This document shows, one piece after another, positions 7,292 to 32,595 of a DNA stretch of 33,120 bases (position 1 is the stretch's first letter; every line of letters begins with the position of its first letter). This stretch comes from Planctomycetaceae bacterium (lineage in GTDB: Bacteria; Planctomycetota; Phycisphaerae; SM23-33). A model generated the notes under the pieces. The model was not told the origin of the DNA and made no database searches. It worked only from the letters and a program-made list of their open reading frames with translations. The stretch lies in assembly GCA_039680605.1 (NCBI GenBank), contig JBDKTA010000064.1, positions 1 to 33,120 of the forward strand. The letters are read 5' to 3'. The translations under genes and the position numbers were made by a program.

Positions 7292-8515
7292 TTATTGAGC
7301 CTTGATGGAATAGACGTACAGAGTGTCGTCGTAGCGAAGCAGCAGAGAGCCGTTGGTGACGACGGGGTGGGCCCAGCTCGGGCCCTTCCCGGCGACCTGG
7401 ATCTTGCCGGTGATCTTGAGGCCTTCCGGCGAGGCCGCTGCCAGGGCGGCCTGTCCGTCCTTTTCGCCGAAGAGATACAGCATGCCGTCGGCCCAGATCA
7501 GGGAGCCTTTGCCCACGGCGGGGTGCTTCCACTTGGTCTTGCCGCTGGCCAACTCGATGCAACTGACGCCGCCGCCATTGTCGCCATAGACATGACCGCC
7601 GTCGAGCACGAACCCGCCGTGATGGCAGACCATGTCCTTGCTGCGGTACGCCTCGGTGGCTGTCACCTTGCCGTCGGCGACATCGAGCTTCAGGCACACT
7701 GCGCCCCTGCCGTATCCCACCGCCCAGAACAGATACCCGTCCGAGAACATCGGGGAGGGGCAATTGGCCGTGTTGCCTGCGGCGAAATCGTTTGTCCAGA
7801 GCGTCTTGCCGGTCTTGGCGTCGACGCCGATGAGACCGCCGGCCGTGCCGTTGATGATCATCGACACGCCCTTGTACTCGACGGCGATGGCCGAGCAGTA
7901 ATGCGCGGCGCCGAACTTTTCCGACTGCCAGATATTCTTGCCGGTCTTCTTGTTCAAGGCCACCATGCACGCCGTGCCGCCGGGGGTGACGACGGCCATC
8001 TCGCCCGTCACCAGCACCGATTCGGCAAAACCCCAGTGGGGTTTCTTGCCGGCGAACTCGCTGAAGTTGCGCGTCCAGACTTTTTCGCCGGTCTTGGCGT
8101 CGCAGCAGACGACCAAGCCCGACCCGGCGACGAGGTACAGCTTGCCGTCGTCATAGGTCGCCGAAGAGCGGGCGCCCGGCCAGGAGGTCTTGAACGCCGG
8201 ACCGACGACCTTGCTCCAGAGCTTCTTGCCCTGGGTGTCCAGGCAGGTCAGCACCAAGTCGTCGCCCTTGTCGCCGGTGATGTAGATCTTGCCGTCGACC
8301 CAGGTCGGGCTGGAGTAGCCTGACCCGATCCCCTGGGCCTTCCACAGCAGCTTGGGACCGCCGGCGGGCCATTCCTTGAGCAGGCCCGTGTCGGTGCTGC
8401 GCTTGTCGCGCTGCGGTCCCGACCAGCAGGGCCAGTCGGCCCGGGCAAGGGTCCATCCGGACAAGACGATAGCCGCCGCAACCACCGCCGCCGCCAATTT
8501 GCATTTCCGTGTCAT
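7292..8515 (-). CDS. exported PQQ-type beta-propeller repeat protein
   Basis: This 407-aa protein has a Sec signal peptide (MTRKCKLAAAVVAAAIVLSG..ARA) and then repeated PQQ/quinoprotein propeller blades. Examples are LTCLDTQGKKLWSKVV, VCCDAKTGEKVWTRNF, VALNKKTGKNIWQSE, IGVDAKTGKTLWTND and IELASGKTKWKHP. The overall plan resembles BamB and the planctomycete PQQ-like proteins of the periplasm. The fold does not prove PQQ binding or enzyme activity, and many members are structural or binding proteins. The ATG at 8515 is chosen because AAAGGA stands 6 bases upstream; a TTG two codons earlier is less likely. A terminator follows the gene. It is divergent from the PEP-CTERM gene at 8707, so the gap between holds promoters for both. 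Confidence 0.9.
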   Translation of the reverse strand: MTRKCKLAAAVVAAAIVLSGWTLARADWPCWSGPQRDKRSTDTGLLKEWPAGGPKLLWKAQGIGSGYSSPTWVDGKIYITGDKGDDLVLTCLDTQGKKLWSKVVGPAFKTSWPGARSSATYDDGKLYLVAGSGLVVCCDAKTGEKVWTRNFSEFAGKKPHWGFAESVLVTGEMAVVTPGGTACMVALNKKTGKNIWQSEKFGAAHYCSAIAVEYKGVSMIINGTAGGLIGVDAKTGKTLWTNDFAAGNTANCPSPMFSDGYLFWAVGYGRGAVCLKLDVADGKVTATEAYRSKDMVCHHGGFVLDGGHVYGDNGGGVSCIELASGKTKWKHPAVGKGSLIWADGMLYLFGEKDGQAALAAASPEGLKITGKIQVAGKGPSWAHPVVTNGSLLLRYDDTLYVYSIKAQ

Positions 8516-8614
8516 AAACAATCCTTTAGTGAAGCCCCTGGGGGCGACGGAATTGTACCAGTTGCCCCGCCAATAATCTACGTGCTCCTACGGCGGAATC
8601 TCCCGGAATTAGTA

Positions 8615-8642
8615 TTGCATTTTTCAGATGTGCTTGTATAAT
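8615..8642 (+). promoter_or_regulatory. sigma70-type promoter of the first PEP-CTERM gene
   Basis: TTGCAT (8615-8620) and TATAAT (8637-8642) are separated by 16 bases. The start codon at 8707 lies about 60 bases beyond, leaving a short leader with the ribosome-binding site GAGG. Confidence 0.65.
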
Positions 8643-8706
8643 GAGCGAGTCTAAAAGGAGAGGTTTAGACCGAATCACTTAGCCGGTTCCGAGAAACGAG
8701 GACAAG

Positions 8707-9315
8707 ATGCGATCCTATGCTGCCGCGGTAACGTGCCTGGCTCTGTGTGTAGCTTCAGCGAGCGCCGGAATCACCGACTATGCTATCGCAAACGACGGCG
8801 ACGGCGCGATCAATTGCGTCGTGGACAGTTGGGCCGACGAGGGCGCAGAGACATATTCGATGACGATCGTGGGCGATCAGTTCTGGGGACCCGGGCACAT
8901 GGTCGGCGAGTTCACGGTCGACAATGATCCGACCGTTCGGGTTCGCAACATCATCGACAACGAGACATCTTCCGCCTGGATCGGCTATCGCGTCAACGTC
9001 TTCCTGGCCAATCCATTCATGGTCTCCACGGCGCCCGCCGATCTGCTGGTGTACGGCCCGACCGATTGGACAGCCACTCTCACCCAGAGCGCCACGTGGA
9101 ACGGCACGGCGTATCAAGCCATCATCGACTACACCGGTGGAACACCCATCGCCGTCGGCGAGACTTTGGACTTCGGCTACAAGTTTATCTTCCAAGGCAC
9201 GGTGCAGTACTGCCAGGAAATGATTCCGATCTCGCTTGCGATCCCTGAGCCGGCAACGATGTCGCTGCTGGCCATCGGCGGCCTTGCTGCCCTGCTCCGC
9301 CGCAAACGCAGCTAA
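8707..9315 (+). CDS. PEP-CTERM sorting-domain protein
   Basis: This 202-aa exported protein has an N-terminal signal peptide (MRSYAAAVTCLALCVASASA). Its C-terminus is a classical PEP-CTERM signal: PEP in AIPEPATMS, a hydrophobic span LLAIGGLAALL and the basic tail RRKRS. In this system exosortase cleaves the signal and the protein is attached to or released at the cell surface. The body (about 160 residues, beta-strand and Asp/Thr rich) is not recognised. It has its own promoter and a Rho-independent terminator, so it is probably monocistronic. No exosortase gene lies in the window. A second PEP-CTERM gene follows on the same strand. Confidence 0.92.
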   Translation: MRSYAAAVTCLALCVASASAGITDYAIANDGDGAINCVVDSWADEGAETYSMTIVGDQFWGPGHMVGEFTVDNDPTVRVRNIIDNETSSAWIGYRVNVFLANPFMVSTAPADLLVYGPTDWTATLTQSATWNGTAYQAIIDYTGGTPIAVGETLDFGYKFIFQGTVQYCQEMIPISLAIPEPATMSLLAIGGLAALLRRKRS

Positions 9316-9340
9316 CCATCTTTCTCAAGACGATCCCCGC

Positions 9341-9367
9341 ACGGGCGGCCCCAACCAGGCCGCCCGT
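9341..9367 (+). terminator. terminator after the first PEP-CTERM gene
   Basis: ACGGGCGGCC (9341-9350) pairs perfectly with GGCCGCCCGT (9358-9367) around a 7-base loop, and GCTTTG follows. The 3' arm and tail (GCCGCCCGTTGCYTT) are shared with the hairpin after the second PEP-CTERM gene. Confidence 0.7.
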
Positions 9368-9538
9368 TGCTTTGCGCTGCACGCGAAAAAGCGCCCGGGG
9401 GGAGGTGAGAATAAATTCTCTATGTCCGCGGGATTGGCGCTATAACTCCTGCAGGGGCGACGTCAGGCCAGGGACCCGAAGAAGCACTTAGCGGCGGCGG
9501 GCCGGAGCCGCCTTGCACTTCAAAGGAGGACGGGAGAA

Positions 9539-11098
9539 ATGGCAACAGTACTGATCAGCCGACTCATGATCGCGGTGCGCGCGGCGGCGACGGCCGCAAT
9601 CCTGCTCATGCCTGGTCCGCTTCAGGCGGCGCTGGGGCCCGACGACCTGCCGGGCCTCAACGAGGAAATCGTCATCACCGACAGCGTCGAGTACCTCATC
9701 GGCGCCGGTCAGACCGGGACCTGGGCCGGCACGTTCACGGTGCAGGCCGGCGGCAGCCTGACCATCACCAACCTGGGCACGCTCGACATTCCCTTCGGGG
9801 CCGTCAGCAGTTCGTCGGCGACATTCAGCCTGGTGAACGCCGCTACGATGGATGTGGGGAATTTCAACATGCAAAGCTATGCCGGCACGTTCAACGTCTC
9901 CAACGAGAGCACGCTGACTAGCGGCAACTGGAACATCGCCCACAGCGGCGCGGGAACGCTGACCCTGTCCAACTCCGGCACCGCGAACCTGACTAATTTA
10001 AATTCCAGTACCTACGGCGGGCAGACCAGCTTCGTCAACACCGGCACGCTGAACATCAACAACTTCAATGTGCTGGACCAGAACGACAAGACCACCATCA
10101 ACAACTCGGCATCGCTCAACGTCAACAACATCAACATGACCGCCAACGGAGCAATGGGGTTCGTTGAGCTGGCCAATACCGGAACGGTCCAGTCGGGCAC
10201 AGTCAATATCAACGCCAACTACGGCGGCACCGTCAACATCGACGGCCAATTCGGCTCGGCGACCATCGACAGCCTCAATGGTCAGGCCAACGGTTCCAGC
10301 CACGGTAAGTCCAGTGCGATCAACATCCTCAACGGGTACATGGACATCGCGCACGAGAACTTCAACGTCCACAATGCCCAGATCAACATCCAGAACAACG
10401 GCTACGATGCCATCGGCACGATGAACGTGACCTGCACGGGCACGACGGGCGTCCTGAACCTTCAGAACAACGGCACCTTCATCCTGGAGACTGGAAACTT
10501 CAACGCCTACACCGGCGGTCAGATCAACCTGGCCAACAACGGCTGGCTTGAGGGCAACGAAATGTGGATTCTGGCCCAATCGGCCGATGAGGCATCAAGG
10601 GTGGCTCTCTTCAATACCGCCACTTTGCAGCTGTCGCAATTGAGCCTCACCAGCACCGGAGCCGCCACTGTTGGTTTCCAGAATAACGGCGTCCTCGACG
10701 CCGACAAGGTTTCCATCAGCACTCTGTTCGGCGGCAAGACCGGCGTCAACACGCTATTTGGTCAGTTCAACGCCGAGGACATCGACTTCGACGTGGACTA
10801 TTCTGTCGACGGCCTGCCGCAGATCGCCGTGCTTGCCTATGGTCACCTCAAGGCCGATGGCACCTTGACCATCGAGGGCTCTGCCGTTGACAAGGCGTTC
10901 CTGGACAGCTCGGAGGCGGCATTCTTCGTCTACGACGATCAGGGCAAGACGTACCTGGTGGCCTTCAACGGCAGCAATCCGCCGGCCGTGGTGCCCGAGC
11001 CTCTGACGCTGATCGGAGGCGTTCTGGGCTGCGCCGCCGTGGCGTGGCGCCGACGCCGGTGGATTCGCAAGCATCTCCGCGGCGCGGGGACGAAATGA
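9539..11098 (+). CDS. PEP-CTERM protein with Asn-rich beta-solenoid-like repeats
   Basis: This 519-aa exported protein starts with a long hydrophobic signal region (about 1-31, ending ..GPLQA). The body, about 50-430, is a succession of short strands separated by turns rich in Asn, Thr and Gly (SLTITNLGTLDI, TLTLSNSGTANLTNLN, SLNVNNINMTANG, GTVNIDGQFGS). The spacing of about 18-22 residues looks like a right-handed beta-helix, as in adhesins and polysaccharide-binding proteins. The C-terminus has VPEPLTLIGG, a hydrophobic span and WRRRRW, an exosortase sorting signal. The basic tail (IRKHLRGAGTK) is longer than usual. AAAGGAGG precedes the ATG. It is probably a cell-surface or matrix protein; ligand unknown. 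Confidence 0.9.
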   Translation: MATVLISRLMIAVRAAATAAILLMPGPLQAALGPDDLPGLNEEIVITDSVEYLIGAGQTGTWAGTFTVQAGGSLTITNLGTLDIPFGAVSSSSATFSLVNAATMDVGNFNMQSYAGTFNVSNESTLTSGNWNIAHSGAGTLTLSNSGTANLTNLNSSTYGGQTSFVNTGTLNINNFNVLDQNDKTTINNSASLNVNNINMTANGAMGFVELANTGTVQSGTVNINANYGGTVNIDGQFGSATIDSLNGQANGSSHGKSSAINILNGYMDIAHENFNVHNAQINIQNNGYDAIGTMNVTCTGTTGVLNLQNNGTFILETGNFNAYTGGQINLANNGWLEGNEMWILAQSADEASRVALFNTATLQLSQLSLTSTGAATVGFQNNGVLDADKVSISTLFGGKTGVNTLFGQFNAEDIDFDVDYSVDGLPQIAVLAYGHLKADGTLTIEGSAVDKAFLDSSEAAFFVYDDQGKTYLVAFNGSNPPAVVPEPLTLIGGVLGCAAVAWRRRRWIRKHLRGAGTK

Positions 11099-18347: not shown

Positions 18348-18353
18348 ATAAAA

Positions 18354-18460
18354 GGCGGCATTCACCTACTCTCCCGCTTGAGCAGTACCATCGGCCGCTA
18401 CGGCTTAACTTCTGTGTTCGGGATGGGAACAGGTGTGGCCCGCAGCGAATATACACCGCC
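18354..18460 (-). rRNA. rrf: 5S ribosomal RNA
   Basis: The minus strand carries the conserved 5S elements CCTGTTCCCATCCCGAACAC (loop B/C region) and GGGAGAGTAGGT. Terminal GGCGGT and ACCGCC-like ends pair. It lies about 130 bases after the 23S gene. The intervening spacer contains a hairpin built on CCCGGACAGGC and GCCTGCCCGG. Confidence 0.95.
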
Positions 18461-18589
18461 AAAGCCCGGACAGGCGGTTAGGCCTGCCCGGACAGAGGTA
18501 ATAGGGTAATAGAGTTTGCAGAGGTATCAAAGATCTCGCTGTCCTAGCGAGCTCTCGAGCCAAAGGTCCGGGTGGACCGATGGCAAATG

Positions 18590-21534
<2,945 letters not shown>

Positions 21535-21545
21535 ATTTGCCACGG

Positions 21546-22199
21546 GCCCATGCCCATGACCAATGTCCCAAGCTCGCCGGGCACATCGAGATCTTCGATG
21601 AACCTATGCAAGATCTACTATTACCCTATTTACTTTTCAAGAAACCGTTTTACCGCTCTCGTCCGGCCAGCCCTATCGGCTCACCAGACAACACTGCACT
21701 CGAAAGCTGAATGCTCTCAAGTGCAGAGCACAGCTTTATACGCGATTACCCCCACGCCGGTCAAGCACCAGTCTAACATTTTTTGCAAAAAATTATTCCG
21801 GAAGCTCAAACAGGCGCCAAAGGCTTGATTTTAAGGCTTTTTCGTCGCTTGCCAATCCCGAGCCCGCGACGGTCGGCCTCAAAATTCTTTCTTGTTCGAC
21901 TCGCCAGCCCTTCTAGAATCCCCATTCGTCATGCCGGCTTCGTACGCTTCTATCCTGATACGTCCCAGCGGCGATTTGGTTCTGGTTTTTCGCGGACGCC
22001 CGCAGGAAATCCGGGGGATTTCACCGCAGAGATCGCGGAGAACGCGCAGGGGAAGGCAGCAACAGCGTGGACGTAACGGTTTTTTCTTCTACCCCGCTGG
22101 ATTGCCAGGGCGTACTTCGCCGAAGGCGAACGAAGCCCGGCTTCGCCCCTGAAGGGGCTTCGCCGTGGCAGTTCTTCTTCGCCCTTGGCGAATAAGAAC
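21546..22199 (-). other. long spacer between tRNA-Ala and 23S
   Basis: About 650 bases separate tRNA-Ala and the 23S gene, with no gene I can support. The spacer holds a CGCAGAGATCGCGGAGAAC copy of the dispersed CGCAGAG family (about 22025) and hairpins of the type CGCCGAAGGCG and GCCCCTGAAGGGGC (about 22118-22160). It is unusually long for an internal spacer and appears to have collected repeat elements. Confidence 0.6.
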
Positions 22200-22272
22200 T
22201 GGAGACGAGCGGGCTCGAACCGCCAACCCCAGCGTTGCAAACGCTGTGCTCTTCCAATTGAGCTACGTCCCC
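22200..22272 (-). tRNA. tRNA-Ala(TGC)
   Basis: The 73-nt cloverleaf has anticodon stem CAGCG/CGCTG and loop TTTGCAA, giving anticodon TGC. The acceptor stem contains the G3-U70 pair that is the alanine identity element, and the discriminator is A. CCA is not encoded. It lies in the usual Ile-Ala order upstream of the 23S gene. Confidence 0.96.
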
Positions 22273-22278
22273 GAAAGA

Positions 22279-22385
22279 ATTTCCAATTTCCGATTTCCAA
22301 TTTCCGATTGAAAAACGGGGACGCTGCACCGAGGCACGATCGTGCCGGAGGTTCAATTGGAAATTGCCAATTGGAAATTGGCAAT
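22279..22385. repeat. AT-rich inverted repeat between two tRNA genes
   Basis: Copies of TTTCCAATTTCCGA (22279-22310) face copies of AATTGGAAATTGCCAATTGG (22354-22385). At the centre is a perfect 14-bp palindrome, GGCACGATCGTGCC (22333-22346). The whole could fold between tRNA-Ala and tRNA-Ile and affect their processing. It contrasts with the GC-rich surroundings and looks inserted. Confidence 0.6.
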
Positions 22386-22389
22386 CGAC

Positions 22390-22463
22390 TGGGCCTGGTT
22401 GGAGTCGAACCAACGACCTTGCCCTTATCAGGGGCACGCTCTAACCAACTGAGCTACAAGCCC
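22390..22463 (-). tRNA. tRNA-Ile(GAT)
   Basis: The 74-nt cloverleaf has acceptor GGGCTTG/CAGGCCC, D-stem GCTC/GAGC, anticodon stem TGCCC/GGGCA and loop CTGATAA, giving anticodon GAT. The discriminator is A and CCA is not encoded. It is the first gene of the transcript that continues to tRNA-Ala, 23S and 5S. Confidence 0.96.
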
Positions 22464-22724: not shown

Positions 22725-24191
22725 CTAACGTGGCGCTTCCAGGTCTTGTTCTGCAACCCGAGGCGAATGCGCGCCGCAGCTTTCGGCGTCGGGCGCCGCG
22801 GAAGTGGCTGGATAAAAGCCCATTTCCTGCATCCCCTTGAGCTTGGGCAACACGTTGCCCGCAAGGTCCACGTGGAAGAAGCCCGGGAACACATCCGCAT
22901 TGCCCTGAATCAGATCGAAATACTCGCGATGGCGCGGCGGGATCTCTACCGTCATCCCGTGGCAAATCTCGTGGCCGGTGAAGACGAACTCCGGCAACAG
23001 CCACGGACAAAACTCCAGCGGTGCCTTGCCGGCCAGCTCGCGATAAATCTCCGTCTGGGGCAGCAGGCTCAGCAGGCTCGGCAGAATTCTCGCGCCCATC
23101 ATCCGCAGCGAAACCATCTGGAACAGCGACAAGTTGAACTGGTCCATCGTCTCGAATGGAAAGCCCCAGATGTAAAACGCGTCCACGCGCGGAAAAATAT
23201 TGATCGCCTTGGGCACGACCTCCAGCACCTCGGCAGCCGTGAATCCCTTCTTCAACCGCCGCAGGATCTCGTCGCATCCGGACTCGATGCCGAACCGCAA
23301 CTCGACGCACCCGCAGTCGGCCATCGCCTGCATCATCGGTTCGTCGACGAGATTTACGCGGCCGAACGCCTTCCACTTGACCTTGAGGCCGCGGTGATTG
23401 AGTTCGTCACAGAAATCCACCACGTGCTGACGCGAGGAGACGAAGAACTCATCCTGAAAGAGGAACAGTTCCACGCCGGCCCGTTCGTGCAGCAGGGCCA
23501 TCTCCTGCACGATGTTGGCGGGGCTGCGCGAGTGGCTCTCGAGGTTCCACGCCGGGGCCACCGAACAGAACGTGCAGGGGTACGGACAGCCGCGGCTGGT
23601 CATCATGCCGTATCCGGCGTAGCGCGACAGGTCGATGCGGTCCCAGACCGGGAAGGGAATTGAGTCAAGGTCCTGCACGCGCGGGCGGTCAGCATTGTGC
23701 ATAACGATGCCGCCGCCGCTGCGGAATGAGATGCCCGGTACGGTTGAGAGATCGCGGCCGTCGCGGAGGGCGGCCAGCAGGTCCGGGCCGGTCAGTTCGC
23801 CCTCGCCGCGGCAGATGATGTCGATCCATCCGAACCGCTCGAGCACGAGGCCTTCGACGCCCTTGGTGCCCACACCGCCGAGCACGATCTTCGCGTCGGG
23901 ATACCGCCGTCGCAATTCGCGCGCGGCCACGATCGTAAAAGGCAGCAGATTGGCCATGCACGACAGGCCGATGATGCCGGCCGGCCGGTCGAGAAAATTC
24001 AGGAAGGCCGGCAGGTCGAAGGGGTCTTCGGTATCGCAGGTCTGGTAGTCGCGAAAGTCGACTTCAAAGCCCGCCCGCTCCATTGCGCCGGTGAGATACA
24101 GGCAGCCCAGCGGCACGTGCAGCTCGCGCTCGGTCTGGTCGCCGTAGCGCATGAAGAGCATGTTCAGGTTGACCAGCGTGATGTCGGCCAT
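22725..24191 (-). CDS. B12-binding-type radical SAM enzyme, possible peptide-modifying enzyme
   Basis: This 488-aa protein has an N-terminal Rossmann-like region of the B12-binding class (about 1-150: VNLNMLFMRYGD, VPLGCLYLTGAME, IIGLSCMANLLPF, KIVLGGVGTKGVE, DIICRGEGE). The radical SAM domain (about 195-400) has the 4Fe-4S motif Cys202-x3-Cys206-x2-Cys209 in SRGCPYPCTFCS. It also has FLFQDEFF, VELRFGIESG and FYIWGFPFET, typical of this class. The classic DxHxxG B12 ligand motif is not visible, so cobalamin binding is uncertain. The start ATG is 2 bp after the stop of the upstream leader-like gene, so translation is probably coupled and they are likely functional partners. The last codons and stop lie next to a dispersed ACGCGCGGGGCAAGCC repeat (22701-22730), so the C-terminal tail may have been altered. 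Confidence 0.9.
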   Translation of the reverse strand: MADITLVNLNMLFMRYGDQTERELHVPLGCLYLTGAMERAGFEVDFRDYQTCDTEDPFDLPAFLNFLDRPAGIIGLSCMANLLPFTIVAARELRRRYPDAKIVLGGVGTKGVEGLVLERFGWIDIICRGEGELTGPDLLAALRDGRDLSTVPGISFRSGGGIVMHNADRPRVQDLDSIPFPVWDRIDLSRYAGYGMMTSRGCPYPCTFCSVAPAWNLESHSRSPANIVQEMALLHERAGVELFLFQDEFFVSSRQHVVDFCDELNHRGLKVKWKAFGRVNLVDEPMMQAMADCGCVELRFGIESGCDEILRRLKKGFTAAEVLEVVPKAINIFPRVDAFYIWGFPFETMDQFNLSLFQMVSLRMMGARILPSLLSLLPQTEIYRELAGKAPLEFCPWLLPEFVFTGHEICHGMTVEIPPRHREYFDLIQGNADVFPGFFHVDLAGNVLPKLKGMQEMGFYPATSAAPDAESCGAHSPRVAEQDLEAPR

Positions 24192-24193
24192 GG

Positions 24194-25051
24194 TTACTTG
24201 TCGTCCGAGAGGTCAGGTCGATCTTGGTTCTGCGGCGCCGGCGGCACAGGCTTGTCCGGCCTTATGCCACGGCTGACGGGCAGATCCGGCCGAATGCCTT
24301 TTGACACTGGCGGCCGAGTTGTCGGGCGACTATCAGAAGCAGGTTGGGAAGTTGGCCCTTGGATAATTGTCATACCTGCCATGCGCGGGCCTACGAAAGG
24401 GGGAGCAGGTTGGGAATCGTTGACTGGTTCTGAAGCGAGCTGAGTTGTCGTTTCACCCGGGCCGGAAATGCCACCTATTCCTTCGTCAGTAGAAGTGGCC
24501 GGTCTCTCGGGCTCCGAAGGCGATCTTTGCGGATTAAAGACCATCCCGAATATGTCAGGTCCTTGATCTGTCTGGGGCCGGGATGTTGTCGGCTGGGACG
24601 CTGTTGACGACGGCGTATTTGGTGTTTGATCGGTGCGGTGCCCAAATGAGTATCCGAGGTAGTCTACGAAATCACATCCACCGGCGGTAATTCCCAGCGC
24701 CAGCAGCATTGCCGCTGCGGCTTTGCCGAGGAACGCGGCGATGTTGCTGGGATCGACACGGGTGTTGTTGATGATGGCTTCAAGCTGCGGCTGGGGGATG
24801 ATCGCCAGCATGGCCGCTTCGGTTTCGGTGAGCTTGAGACCGATATCGCCGGCCGCGGCGGCGCGGGCTTCGAGAAGCCGTTTGCGAAACGCCGGATCGA
24901 CCGAGGCCTTCTTGACCAGCACCTCGATACCGCGCGGGATCGCCCCGATGCCCTTGCCCGCCCCGGGCGGCCGCCCGCCGACAATGGTCGTGCGAACGGC
25001 AGGTTGCTCCTGCGGAAGTTGTCCCCGTGATGCGTCGTCCCCGGTTGCCAT
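24194..25051 (-). CDS. RiPP-leader-like protein with Pro-rich tail and GIRPD repeats
   Basis: The 285-aa product starts with a polar segment holding TTIVGGRPPG (21-30). Residues 39-98 (PRGIEVLVKKASVDPAFRKRLLEARAAAA..GLKLTETEAAMLAIIPQPQLEAII) look like the leader fold of the nitrile-hydratase/Nif11-type RiPP precursor clan: an xxDPAFRxxLL helix, then GLxLTxxE. A hydrophobic stretch (108-123) ends in AGGC (123-126), which could be a membrane anchor, a Gly-Gly cleavage site or a poor lipobox. The rest (140-285) is Pro/Ser/Thr/Gln-rich, and VSKGIRPDLP is repeated as VSRGIRPDKP (249-268). AAGGAG sits 7 bases before the ATG; the longer frame upstream runs into a palindromic repeat. The radical SAM gene follows 2 bp later. 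A precursor role is inference. Confidence 0.75.
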   Translation of the reverse strand: MATGDDASRGQLPQEQPAVRTTIVGGRPPGAGKGIGAIPRGIEVLVKKASVDPAFRKRLLEARAAAAGDIGLKLTETEAAMLAIIPQPQLEAIINNTRVDPSNIAAFLGKAAAAMLLALGITAGGCDFVDYLGYSFGHRTDQTPNTPSSTASQPTTSRPQTDQGPDIFGMVFNPQRSPSEPERPATSTDEGIGGISGPGETTTQLASEPVNDSQPAPPFVGPRMAGMTIIQGPTSQPASDSRPTTRPPVSKGIRPDLPVSRGIRPDKPVPPAPQNQDRPDLSDDK

Positions 25052-25667: not shown

Positions 25668-25868
25668 CTACTCCAGCGGATGGCGCCACTTGAGGTCAGG
25701 GAATCGGGCATAGTCGCGGTCGGTGCTGATCCATTCGCAACCGCTCTCGATAGCCAGGGCGGCCAGATAGGCATCGGCAATTATGTTACCTCTGGCCTCG
25801 GTTTGGCGGCATAGGTCGGTAAAGATTTGCCAGTGGCGGCTGCCGGGTGCGACTGAAACAGCGTTAGC
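25668..25868 (-). pseudogene. vapC-like PIN-domain toxin, C-terminal remnant
   Basis: The C-terminal half of a VapC-type PIN ribonuclease is readable: HWQIFTDLCRQTEARGNIIADAYLAALAIESG, then ISTDRDYARFPDLKWRHPL. It retains the Asp of ADAYLAAL and the TDRDYARF motif. The N-terminal half, which would carry the opening Asp (DTNxL) and the first catalytic acids, is absent. It is replaced by a repeat element (25869-26062) that lies between this fragment and the antitoxin gene. An ATG at 25988 in the element would only add a chimeric Cys/Leu-rich head. The toxin is therefore almost certainly dead. Confidence 0.8.
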
Positions 25869-26062
25869 CCGAAAACTGCATGAACCGCAGAGACCGCAGA
25901 GTACGCAAAGAAGCAAATGGGTCAAAACAAGGACATCTAGCGTCCCAACCGGCGTTGAGCCTAAAAACACACTGTTGGTGCGGCGCAATTACACAATTGC
26001 TGTAAGTCTTTTCCCTCACAACACCTCTGCGGCATCTGCGATCTTTGCGGTGAAATATCCGG
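25869..26062. repeat. repeat element interrupting vapBC
   Basis: The element has related inverted ends. The left reads ACCGCAGAGACCGCAGAGTA (about 25880); the right, in reverse complement, reads ACCGCAAAGATCGCAGATGC (about 26035-26055), about three-quarters identical. These are members of the CGCAGAG dispersed family. The interior of about 130 bp has no gene. The element sits exactly where the start of vapC should be, directly after the vapB stop codon. Confidence 0.6.
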
Positions 26063-26063
26063 G

Positions 26064-26312
26064 TTAGGACTTTCCCGCTTCCATCAGGTCCAACAAGGAC
26101 GAAGTGTGATCGAGATCGACGCCGGGGCAAAGTCCGGGCGCTTGAGTTGAGACAGGCAGCCGAACCCTCTTGCCAGATGAAACCTGCGACTCTCGCGACA
26201 GCGACTCGCGCAGCGCATCCTCCACGATCTCGCGCAGCGGCCTGCCCGTGCGAGCGGCCAACTCCTTTGCCCGCTGCAATAGACTGTCACTCAAATCTAA
26301 TGTGGTTCTCAT
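26064..26312 (-). CDS. vapB: VapB-type antitoxin
   Basis: This 82-aa protein has the ribbon-helix-helix opening MRTTLDLSDSLLQRAKELAARTGRPLREIVEDALRESL of VapB-like antitoxins. The C-terminal tail (HTSSLLDLMEAGKS), expected to bind the PIN toxin, is present. Two ATGs are possible: 26312, where the family begins, and 26324, which is only 2 bases from GGAGG; both give the same core. The toxin gene that should follow is truncated and displaced by a repeat element. The antitoxin may persist as a DNA-binding orphan that still represses its own promoter or neutralises related toxins elsewhere. Confidence 0.82.
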   Translation of the reverse strand: MRTTLDLSDSLLQRAKELAARTGRPLREIVEDALRESLSRESQVSSGKRVRLPVSTQAPGLCPGVDLDHTSSLLDLMEAGKS

Positions 26313-26351
26313 ACATAAAAGCATATCCTCCGCGCATCAATATGTCAAAGG

Positions 26352-29514: not shown

Positions 29515-32500
29515 TCAACTGCAGCCCAATGAGGACCCGCAGTTGTAGCACTTATAGCAGTTACCGTTTCGGACGGTAATCGCCCCGCACACGTCGCAGG
29601 CCGGCGCGTCTTCCTGGAATCCGCTGAACTGCTTGTCCAACTGGTCCAGGCGATTAACGCGAGGCTGCTTCTCGACCGCCGCCGCAGCGACGGCCTTCTC
29701 CCGCCCCTTGGATGGACTTCTGGGCGTCGAAACCGAGCCGACGTACGAACCGTCTAATAATGCGCCGCCAGACCTCTGATCGTCCGTGTCGGAGGTCCGG
29801 TCGGCGCGGCCAGGTTCCGAGGGTTTGTCATCCTTGACCGCCTCGGGCGCTGCATCAATGACCAGCCGGGGAATGGCTGGACTGGTGTTGTTGGCTCCGC
29901 GGTCGGGCATGTTGGCCTTGCGATATTCCTCAAGGAACGTCAGGCCCAACCAGCGGAAGATGTAATCGACGATGCTCTTGGCGAAGGGAATGTCGCGGTT
30001 GCTCGTCATGCCCGAAGGCTCGAACCGCTGATGCGTGAACTTCTTGACCAGCGCGTCGAGCGGCACGCCGTACTGCAGGCACAGGCTGATGGCCGTGGCG
30101 AAGGCGTCCATCATGCCCCCGACGGTCGAGCCTTCCTTGGCCATGGTGATGAACAACTCGCCGGGCTCGCCGTTGGCATAGAGGCCCACGTTGAGGTACC
30201 CCTCGTGCCCGGCGACGTCGAACTTGTGCGTCATCGACGGGCGGGTGGCGGGCAGGCGGTTGCGGTGCGGCTGGCGGCGGGCGGCGTCGAGAGCGGCGGC
30301 CAGCGCCTCGGCCGTCATCAGCGATTCGGTCTTTTCGGCGACGACCTTCTTGTCGCCTTCTTTGCGGACGTTGAGCGGCTGCGTGCGCTTCGAGCCGTCG
30401 CGGTAGATGGCCACGGCCTTGATGCCGAGCTTCCAGGCCTCGGTGTAGACCTGCTGGATCTGCTCGACGGAGGCCTCATTGGGGATGTTGACGGTCTTGG
30501 AGATCGCGCCGGAGATAAACGGCTGCACCGCGCCCATCATGCGGATGTGTCCCATGTAGTGGATGCAGCGTCGGCCGTTGGCGGGCTTGAAGGCGCAGTC
30601 GAAGACGCTCAGGTGGCTTTCCTGGATATGCGGGGCGTCTTCAATGGTGTCGTGCTCGTCGATGTACTCGATGATCTCGGCGACCTGGGCGGGGCTGTAG
30701 CCCAGTTGCTTCAGGGCCAGCGGCACGGTCTGGTTGACGAGTTTGAACATGCCGCCGCCGGCAAGCTGCTTGTACTTGACCAGGGCGATATCGGGCTCGA
30801 TGCCGGTGGTGTCGCAGTCCATCATGAAGCCGATGGTGCCCGTCGGGGCCAGCACCGTCACCTGGGCGTTGCGGTAGCCCGCCCGGCTGCCCGCTTCGAG
30901 AGCCTGGTCCCAGGCGGCACGGGCGGCGGCGATGAGTTCCTCGCGGCAGTGCTGGGGCGAGATCTTGTCGACGGCCCCGCGGTGCATGGCCATCACGTCG
31001 AGCATTGGGCGGCGGTTGGCCTCGAAACGGTCGAACGTGCCGACATTGGCGGCGATCTCGGAACTGGCGGCGTACGCCGTGGCGGTCATGATGGCGGTGA
31101 TGGCCGCGGCGGTCGCCCGCCCGGCGTCGCCGTCGTAAGGCATGCCCAGCGACATCAGCAAGGCGCCCAGGTTCGCATAGCCCAGGCCCAGCGGGCGGTA
31201 GGCGTGGCTGTTGGCGCAGATGCGGTCGCTGGGATAGCTGGCATGGTCGACCAGGATGTCCTGGGCGATGATGAACAGCCGCGCCGCGGCGCGGAATCGC
31301 TCGATGTCCATGCTGCCGTCTTCGCGGCGGAATTTCATGAGGTTGAGGCTGGCGAGGTTGCACGCCGAGTCGTTGAGGAACATGTACTCGCTGCAGGGGT
31401 TCGAGGCGCAGATCTCGCCGTCGGTCTTGCAGGTGTGCCAGCGATTGATCGTGGTGTGGAACTGCACGCCCGGGTCGCCGCAGACATGCGTGCCCTCGGC
31501 GATGGCGCCCAGCAGATCCTTGGCCTTGTACTTGATCGAAGGTTTGCGCTCGCCGGTGACTTCGCGCGTCTGCCAGTCGAGGTCTTCGATCGCCGCCTGC
31601 ATGAACTCGTCGGTGGCGCGGATCGAGAGGTTGGCGTTCTGGTACATCACCGAGGAATACGCCTCGCCGTTGAACGAGCCGTCGTAACCCTGCTCGATCA
31701 AGGCCCAGGCCTTGCGCTCCTCGTTCATCTTGCACTCGATGAACTCTTTAATGTCCGGGTGATCGCAGCGCAGCGACTGCATCTTGGCGGCGCGGCGCGT
31801 CTTGCCGCCGCTCTTGACGACCGCGGCGATCTGGTCGAACACCCGCATGAAACTCAGCGGGCCCGAGGGCGTGCCGCCGCCGGAGAGCTTCTCGCGGCTG
31901 GACCGAAGCGTCGAGAGGTCCGTGCCGGTGCCCGAACCGTACTTGAAGAGCATCGCCTCGGCGTGGCAGAGGCGCATGATGTCTTCCATCGTGTCGGCCA
32001 CCGACTGGATGAAGCACGCCGATGCCTGGGGGTACTCGTACCCGTGCATCGTCTTGGCGGGCTGGGCGGTCTTGGCGTCCCAGTGATAGTTGCCTTCGGA
32101 GCCTTTGACGCCGCCCTGGTGGAACAGCCCGACGTTGAACCATACCGGCGAGTTGAACGAACCGTACTGGTTGACGCACAGGTACGTCAGGTCCTGGTAG
32201 AACCGCTCGGCGTCCTCTGCCGTGGCGAACATGCCGTCGGCCTTTCCCCAGTCGGCGATGGTGCGCGTGACGCGGTGGACCAGCGTGCGGACGCTCTTCT
32301 CGCGGGCGGCGCTGGACGGGTCGCCGTAAAAATACTTGCTGACGACGACGTTGGTGGCCAGTTGGCTCCAGGCCGAGGGCACCTCGACGTCGGTCTGCTG
32401 GAAAATGACTTTGCCCTTATCGTCGCCGATATGGGCGGTGCGGGATTCCCACTCGATGTCGTCGAAAGGATGTATCTGTCCGTTCGAGAACACCTGCTCG

Positions 32501-32595
32501 ATCGCCAGGCCCCGGCCGGAGGGGCGATGGGCTGCGATCCTTTCGCGGCGACGCGAAAACCTTTCGCCGGACTCGTTAGATTTTTGCACCGCCAT
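29515..32595 (-). CDS. nrdJ: vitamin B12-dependent ribonucleoside-diphosphate reductase (class II)
   Basis: This 1026-aa enzyme makes deoxyribonucleotides by a cobalamin-generated thiyl radical, with or without oxygen. The catalytic region is clear: Cys194 in QASACFIQS and Cys412 in NDSACNLASLNL form the redox pair, and Cys401 in NPCSEYMF carries the radical. KYGSGTGTDLSTLRSSRE and the substrate-loop motifs follow the class II pattern. The C-terminus has a TSCPD-type domain (EPGELFITMAKEGSTVGGMMDAFATAISLCLQYGVPLDALV), a low-complexity Pro/Ser/Asp/Ala linker (about 920-995), and a final zinc-ribbon-like tail (ACDVCGAITVRNGNCYKCYNCGSSLGC) that probably reduces the active site. GGGAG precedes the ATG. 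It is likely essential and is transcribed alone. No B12 riboswitch is evident upstream. Confidence 0.97.
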   Translation of the reverse strand: MAVQKSNESGERFSRRRERIAAHRPSGRGLAIEQVFSNGQIHPFDDIEWESRTAHIGDDKGKVIFQQTDVEVPSAWSQLATNVVVSKYFYGDPSSAAREKSVRTLVHRVTRTIADWGKADGMFATAEDAERFYQDLTYLCVNQYGSFNSPVWFNVGLFHQGGVKGSEGNYHWDAKTAQPAKTMHGYEYPQASACFIQSVADTMEDIMRLCHAEAMLFKYGSGTGTDLSTLRSSREKLSGGGTPSGPLSFMRVFDQIAAVVKSGGKTRRAAKMQSLRCDHPDIKEFIECKMNEERKAWALIEQGYDGSFNGEAYSSVMYQNANLSIRATDEFMQAAIEDLDWQTREVTGERKPSIKYKAKDLLGAIAEGTHVCGDPGVQFHTTINRWHTCKTDGEICASNPCSEYMFLNDSACNLASLNLMKFRREDGSMDIERFRAAARLFIIAQDILVDHASYPSDRICANSHAYRPLGLGYANLGALLMSLGMPYDGDAGRATAAAITAIMTATAYAASSEIAANVGTFDRFEANRRPMLDVMAMHRGAVDKISPQHCREELIAAARAAWDQALEAGSRAGYRNAQVTVLAPTGTIGFMMDCDTTGIEPDIALVKYKQLAGGGMFKLVNQTVPLALKQLGYSPAQVAEIIEYIDEHDTIEDAPHIQESHLSVFDCAFKPANGRRCIHYMGHIRMMGAVQPFISGAISKTVNIPNEASVEQIQQVYTEAWKLGIKAVAIYRDGSKRTQPLNVRKEGDKKVVAEKTESLMTAEALAAALDAARRQPHRNRLPATRPSMTHKFDVAGHEGYLNVGLYANGEPGELFITMAKEGSTVGGMMDAFATAISLCLQYGVPLDALVKKFTHQRFEPSGMTSNRDIPFAKSIVDYIFRWLGLTFLEEYRKANMPDRGANNTSPAIPRLVIDAAPEAVKDDKPSEPGRADRTSDTDDQRSGGALLDGSYVGSVSTPRSPSKGREKAVAAAAVEKQPRVNRLDQLDKQFSGFQEDAPACDVCGAITVRNGNCYKCYNCGSSLGCS

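Follow-up and report, generated by a model that had tools for sequence, protein, structure and literature searches.

A putative modification-and-export system pairing an NHLP-type leader protein with a B12-binding radical SAM enzyme in Planctomycetota and other bacteria

Two adjacent genes on the reverse strand of the window (the whole 33,120-nucleotide stretch of DNA analysed here) raise the question of whether they form a functional unit and, if so, what kind of product this unit would make. Inspection of the open reading frames placed the first gene, P0001, at 24194..25051 (minus strand), with its ATG at 25051 and its stop at 24194. It codes for a 285-aa putative precursor or substrate protein composed of an NHLP leader, a predicted export signal and a tail bearing GIRPD motifs, and the sequence contains a Shine-Dalgarno motif, AAGGAG (25064-25059, minus strand), 7 nt ahead of the ATG. 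The second gene, P0002 (22725..24191, minus strand), codes for a 488-aa B12-binding radical SAM enzyme, and its ATG at 24191 lies 2 bp past the P0001 stop. Since the two genes are so closely spaced and P0002 lacks a strong Shine-Dalgarno of its own, translation of P0002 is likely coupled to that of P0001, an inference drawn from sequence. The positions of both genes, the 2-bp spacing and the good Shine-Dalgarno on the first gene had been reported in an initial annotation and held exactly as described. The same annotation had interpreted the leader-like protein and the radical SAM enzyme as a peptide-modification pair, and had named three findings that would refute this reading: no leader-family profile match, homologues of the two genes mostly found apart, and no conservation of the GIRPD region. 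None of these three turned out to hold. The pairing is supported by the results below, while modification of the tail itself is inferred.

Other features of the window were recorded in passing. Upstream of the precursor gene, a gene for a VapB-like antitoxin (26067-26324, minus strand) precedes a PIN domain of which just the C-terminal portion is present (25671-25988, minus strand), and the region 25671-26324 is probably a broken toxin-antitoxin pair. Genes for 5S rRNA, 23S rRNA, tRNA-Ala and tRNA-Ile lie in a row at 18353-22463 (minus strand); upstream of tRNA-Ile there is the radical SAM gene P0002 and no 16S rRNA gene. The sole 16S gene found sits on another contig (C50), and the rRNA genes are therefore unlinked.

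Profile searches matched residues 41-92 of P0001 (24776..24931, minus strand) to the NHLP-clan leader model NF038399 with an E-value of 7e-9 and 35.6 bits, which is below the curated cut-off of 40; weak similarity to nitrile hydratase alpha and to Frankia_peptide was also detected. The same model matched all of the homologue leaders scanned (23/23, best 2.9e-11), and its cut-off was passed by two distant members of the family, at L062 and L060 (scores of 46.2 and 42.9 bits). The AlphaFold model of P0001 contains four helices within residues 40-96, followed by a hydrophobic helix at residues 101-123. Among 350,542 chains, Os1348 (6lk7) ranked first as the nearest fold to the predicted leader, but the match was weak both in Foldseek (E 0.7) and upon superposition (Z 5.7, rmsd 4.0 over 65 residues). 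We consider it very likely that the P0001 leader is of the NHLP (Os1348) type, with the reservation that its own score falls under the cut-off and that the case leans on its relatives. A leader pattern of NHLP/Nif11 type had been proposed for residues 39-98; the leader-family profile match now found supports the NHLP part of that proposal, for residues 41-92, whereas the Nif11 part failed, as no Nif11 model matched P0001. The TTIVGGRPPG segment noted ahead of the leader was confirmed at residues 21-30 (24962..24991, minus strand). TIVGGRP is invariant among the 23 aligned homologues that carry the segment, and TIVGGRPPG is optional, being missing from many precursors in the same clusters.

P0002 contains a B12-binding domain at residues 25-138 (23778..24119, minus strand; Pfam PF02310, 48 bits, cut-off 32.1) and a radical SAM core at residues 198-352 (23136..23600, minus strand; PF04055, 55 bits, cut-off 29.5). 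The CxxxCxxC motif for the 4Fe-4S cluster (C202, C206 and C209; 23565..23588, minus strand) is invariant in 17 P0002 orthologues, along with many further positions. The structural model (pLDDT 77, pTM 0.82) has TsrM, CysS, OxsB, TokK and MgmA as fold neighbours and does not reveal which residue is modified. By sequence, the best match in the PDB is likewise CysS (7.5e-20), and the best NCBIfam match is ApyD (NF050148; 182.8 bits, not reaching the equivalog cut-off of 750). P0002 thus belongs to the B12-binding radical SAM enzymes, and its modelled fold is of the TsrM/CysS/TokK type. Most of the enzymes TsrM, CysS, OxsB, TokK and MgmA are cobalamin-dependent methylases, as is also indicated by the titles of their PDB entries, and the B12-binding radical SAM fold also includes the non-methylating enzymes AprD4 and OxsB. 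C-methylation is likely to be the chemistry of P0002, an inference made by analogy and without biochemistry; because OxsB and AprD4 carry out other chemistry, it is not the sole option. The window also encodes a class II B12-dependent ribonucleotide reductase (29518-32595, minus strand), which fits a cobalamin-using host.

The closest other radical SAM enzymes, at 340-364 bits, belong to the tandem pairs of a separate family, f61, and no NHLP or GIRPD precursor was found beside them at the loci concerned (L102-L104). At each of these loci three radical SAM genes lie in a row (L102, 5211-9330; L103, 7123-11209; L104, 1191-5286), and two of the three are closer to P0002 than any other enzyme found beyond its own clade. 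A small upstream open reading frame at L103 (6433-6834) looks PqqD-like by eye and has no profile support.

The simplest objection is that P0001 is an ordinary lipoprotein that lies beside an unrelated radical SAM gene by chance, an explanation for which we found no support beyond the generic annotation of the parts. Scanning genome contigs with the leader alignment revealed 21 loci, in Planctomycetota and in records labelled Coatesbacteria, Zixibacteria, Muiribacteriota, Verrucomicrobia, Chloroflexota, Desulfomonile and others; taxon labels of metagenome bins may be wrong, and two of the Coatesbacteria records are chromosomes. Most loci contain one to six precursor genes followed immediately by a radical SAM gene whose product is 65-72% identical to P0002. 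The start of the radical SAM gene lies 1-98 bp past the last precursor in 16 of the 17 loci measured, and in the seventeenth (L028) an 800-bp gap is filled by a further related open reading frame. The loci that depart from this arrangement are accounted for: L027 ends near a contig edge, L040 is masked inside the radical SAM gene, L039 belongs to the genome that also contains L033, and one genome carries the precursor and the enzyme on separate contigs (L035 and L101). The radical SAM enzymes group together in a single clade, fully supported against the nearest outgroup.

Among 392 genomes drawn evenly from the phylum, nine contained leader proteins and close radical SAM orthologues were found (at least 748 bits, the next radical SAM enzymes scoring 364 or less) in eight, all eight being among the nine leader-bearing genomes (Fisher test, 7e-16; related genomes are not independent). 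In the ninth genome (G223), the leader runs in frame into the final 64 residues of the radical SAM enzyme, the remains of a decayed cluster. The pair is rare, occurring in about 2% of the genomes sampled in this phylum, and the expectation that homologues of the two genes stay together held for nearly every genome having either one. This phylum-wide co-occurrence refutes the chance-neighbour explanation, which is further opposed by the conserved gene order and the shared leader and is all but excluded; the leader protein and the radical SAM enzyme constitute a real unit. The fusion at L065 (6725-7339, minus strand) joins leader and lipobox in frame to the last 64 radical SAM residues, a deletion having removed most of the enzyme along with the tail.

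When neighbouring open reading frames were compared all against all, nothing proved conserved beyond the precursors and the radical SAM enzyme; a conserved transporter, protease, peptidase-transporter or RRE protein was not found in these neighbourhoods. Neither protein searches nor NF038399 searches found a second family member in the window's genome. The approximately 60 precursors follow one plan: an optional TIVGGRPPG segment, the NHLP domain, a hydrophobic segment that we interpret below as an export signal, and a variable, GIRPDxP-bearing tail. The protein at L016 (G038; 7779-9857, minus strand), in which an NHLP-like domain precedes a transmembrane helix and a long tail rich in Pro, was excluded from the family; it is leader-like and hydrophobic, but its genome has no close radical SAM orthologue and it has no GIRPD motif. 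At L063 (5771-7131, minus strand), two more NHLP-like proteins with a hydrophobic segment and tails that look pseudopilin-like by eye are encoded downstream of the radical SAM gene.

The tail of P0001 contains a degenerate first motif, GHRTDQT, just past the signal (24623..24643, minus strand), whose G137 is nearly invariant in the alignment, and two copies near the C terminus, GIRPDLP (24278..24298, minus strand) and GIRPDKP (24248..24268, minus strand), the latter two being the doubled VS(K/R)GIRPDxP of the initial annotation. Conservation of this region is strong. In homologue tails that are otherwise unalignable, G.RP[DE] occurs 46 times compared to 0.28 in shuffles, and a profile version of the motif found 127 sites in 47 of 56 tails compared to a mean of 2.5 in shuffled tails. 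The consensus is T-[RK]-G-I-R-P-D-x-P, with G, D and the last P the most constant positions. A motif lies within 30 residues of the signal in 43 tails and within 12 residues of the C terminus in 29. A search of the window's genome with a GIRPDxP codon pattern gave five matches, two of them in P0001 and the other three in frames unlike genes, leaving P0001 as the sole real gene in which the motif was found. Tail length ranges from approximately 50 to over 600 aa, and some tails contain folded domains (TonB_C, acyl-carrier-like or CarboxypepD_reg).

Two alternative interpretations of the motif were considered. The GIRPDxP repeats could be excised to give a natural product made of small modified peptides, with the remaining tail acting as spacer, as in a classical multi-core RiPP. 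The tails with several repeats (four or five in L035, three in L022 and eight motif-like in L026) do resemble multi-core precursors, and precursors of natural products are where NHLP leaders are usually found (Haft 2010, cited in PMC7726476). Against this, a conserved protease or peptidase-transporter was not found, some tails carry large folded domains, and several have a single motif just past the signal; we therefore regard this interpretation as unlikely. Alternatively, the enzyme could act elsewhere in the precursor, for instance on TIVGGRPPG or on an embedded domain, with GIRPDxP serving as an independent sorting or binding tag. TIVGGRPPG is as conserved as the GIRPD motif, and a clear motif is missing from several precursors, such as the first copies of L028 and L022, and L070. 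This explanation also seems improbable, since TIVGGRPPG is missing from many precursors of the same clusters and sits in the part predicted to be removed, and the only feature that most mature tails have in common is the GIRPD motif.

The hydrophobic segment between leader and tail, FLGKAAAAMLLALGITAGGC (residues 107-126; 24674..24733, minus strand), reads as a lipoprotein-type signal ending in a lipobox-like AGGC, which had been recognized as the end of a hydrophobic segment in the initial annotation and does end at residue 126. The signals were assessed with regular expressions, hydrophobicity and the TIGR01409 model, without a dedicated predictor such as SignalP. Regular expressions identified a lipobox-like Cys in the window protein (ITAGGC) and in 34 of 59 precursors, and AXA sites only in 24 of 59. 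RRxF[LK] occurs just ahead of the hydrophobic segment in 14 of 59. The TIGR01409 Tat model exceeded its cut-off in three homologues (two proteins of L060 and one of L061), placed directly behind the NHLP domain, and TatC is present in the window's genome. Based on the lipoboxes and AXA sites of the relatives, the TIGR01409 matches and the genomic TatC, the segment is likely an export signal of lipoprotein or Tat type, probably Tat-derived, an interpretation inferred from sequence and not from experiment. Lying approximately 105 residues into the protein, the segment is in an unusual place for an export signal, which counts against this interpretation. The export route of P0001 is uncertain because its own signal has no RR pair.

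Alternatively, the segment could be a stop-transfer anchor that holds the uncleaved protein in the membrane, with its NHLP domain on the cytoplasmic side and its modified tail on the outer side. The long hydrophobic helix predicted at residues 101-123 favors this possibility, as does the existence of precursors with neither a lipobox nor a clear AXA site. However, Cys is 11-fold enriched in the C-region of the signal, at the lipobox position (43/1180 positions compared to 47/13813), and AXA sites or Tat signals occur among members without this Cys, making an uncleaved anchor unlikely. The export-signal interpretation revises the suggestion of a membrane-held or very large precursor in favor of a protein that is probably modified and exported, although this too is inferred.

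Taken together, a two-gene modification-and-export system is the explanation that we favor, with moderate confidence. The leader family, the enzyme family, their co-occurrence, the shared architecture, the conservation of the motif and the signal-like sequences are shown. The remaining steps are inferred and lack biochemistry. In the cytoplasm, the NHLP-clan helical domain would serve as the docking site for the dedicated, cobalamin-dependent radical SAM enzyme. This enzyme would modify the short GIRPDxP motifs of the tail before export, most likely by adding a methyl group onto an unactivated carbon of the Ile-Arg-Pro-Asp segment. Export would proceed via the signal behind the NHLP domain, of lipoprotein or AXA type, and of Tat type in a distant clade. 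Signal peptidase II or I would cut at this signal, making leader removal and export a single step. The released product would be a lipoprotein or a secreted protein carrying the modification, with no need for a dedicated RiPP protease or transporter. A peptidase-transporter is usual in NHLP pathways; removal of leader and signal together by signal peptidase would dispense with it, and none is conserved here. The product would probably serve as a tag on a surface or periplasmic protein.

Comparison with known systems indicates which parts of this arrangement have precedents. As in NHLP/Os1348 RiPP precursors (NF038399, TIGR03793; 6lk7, PMC7726476), an NHLP-clan leader, helical by prediction, is present and the precursor gene adjoins the gene of the modifying enzyme. 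In contrast to those precursors (Os1348 itself is 85 aa), the present leader precedes an export signal and long, sometimes multi-domain tails, and no peptidase-transporter is conserved in the neighbourhoods of the family. ApyD (NF050148), the best NCBIfam match of P0002, is likewise a B12-binding radical SAM enzyme; it acts in the aminopyruvatide pathway, where it C-methylates its peptide substrate to give beta-methyl-Tyr (PMC10635010). Unlike P0002, ApyD contains an RRE and works with a P450 and an MNIO on a short-peptide substrate (PMC10635010). P0002 shares the two-domain fold of TsrM, CysS, TokK and MgmA but only 16-20% identity, and their substrates differ. For export by a general signal, the bufferins offer the nearest precedent; in them, Sec signals replace the leader, some signals are of lipoprotein type and some precursors are large fusions; export signals were called rare among bacterial RiPPs (PMC12452194). 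Products of the present family, like bufferins and other MNIO-modified RiPPs, would be modified and then exported via a general signal peptide. The bufferins differ in relying on an MNIO and a partner protein with mostly Cys-based chemistry, and in having no separate NHLP docking domain ahead of the signal. An export signal behind an NHLP leader, paired with a radical SAM enzyme, would be new relative to these systems. The literature that we searched contained no report of this combination and no relevant mention of the GIRPD or IVGGRPP motifs.

If correct, the proposed system would link peptide-natural-product enzymology to protein secretion and would explain leader removal without a dedicated protease. 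Because the signal lies approximately 105 residues into the protein, signal-peptide predictors focused on the N terminus may miss such precursors. With short members that carry repeats, the chemistry can be tested directly, and a short portable motif with one enzyme offers a possible test system for radical modification of whole proteins. In a bolder interpretation, which we rate as slightly less likely than not, an NHLP domain placed before a Tat or lipoprotein signal would recruit the B12-binding radical SAM enzyme and signal peptidase would strip the docking domain, amounting to a general, export-coupled tagging of GIRPDxP on otherwise unrelated folded proteins. RiPP machinery would then serve in these bacteria to mark structural or surface proteins and not to make a natural product.
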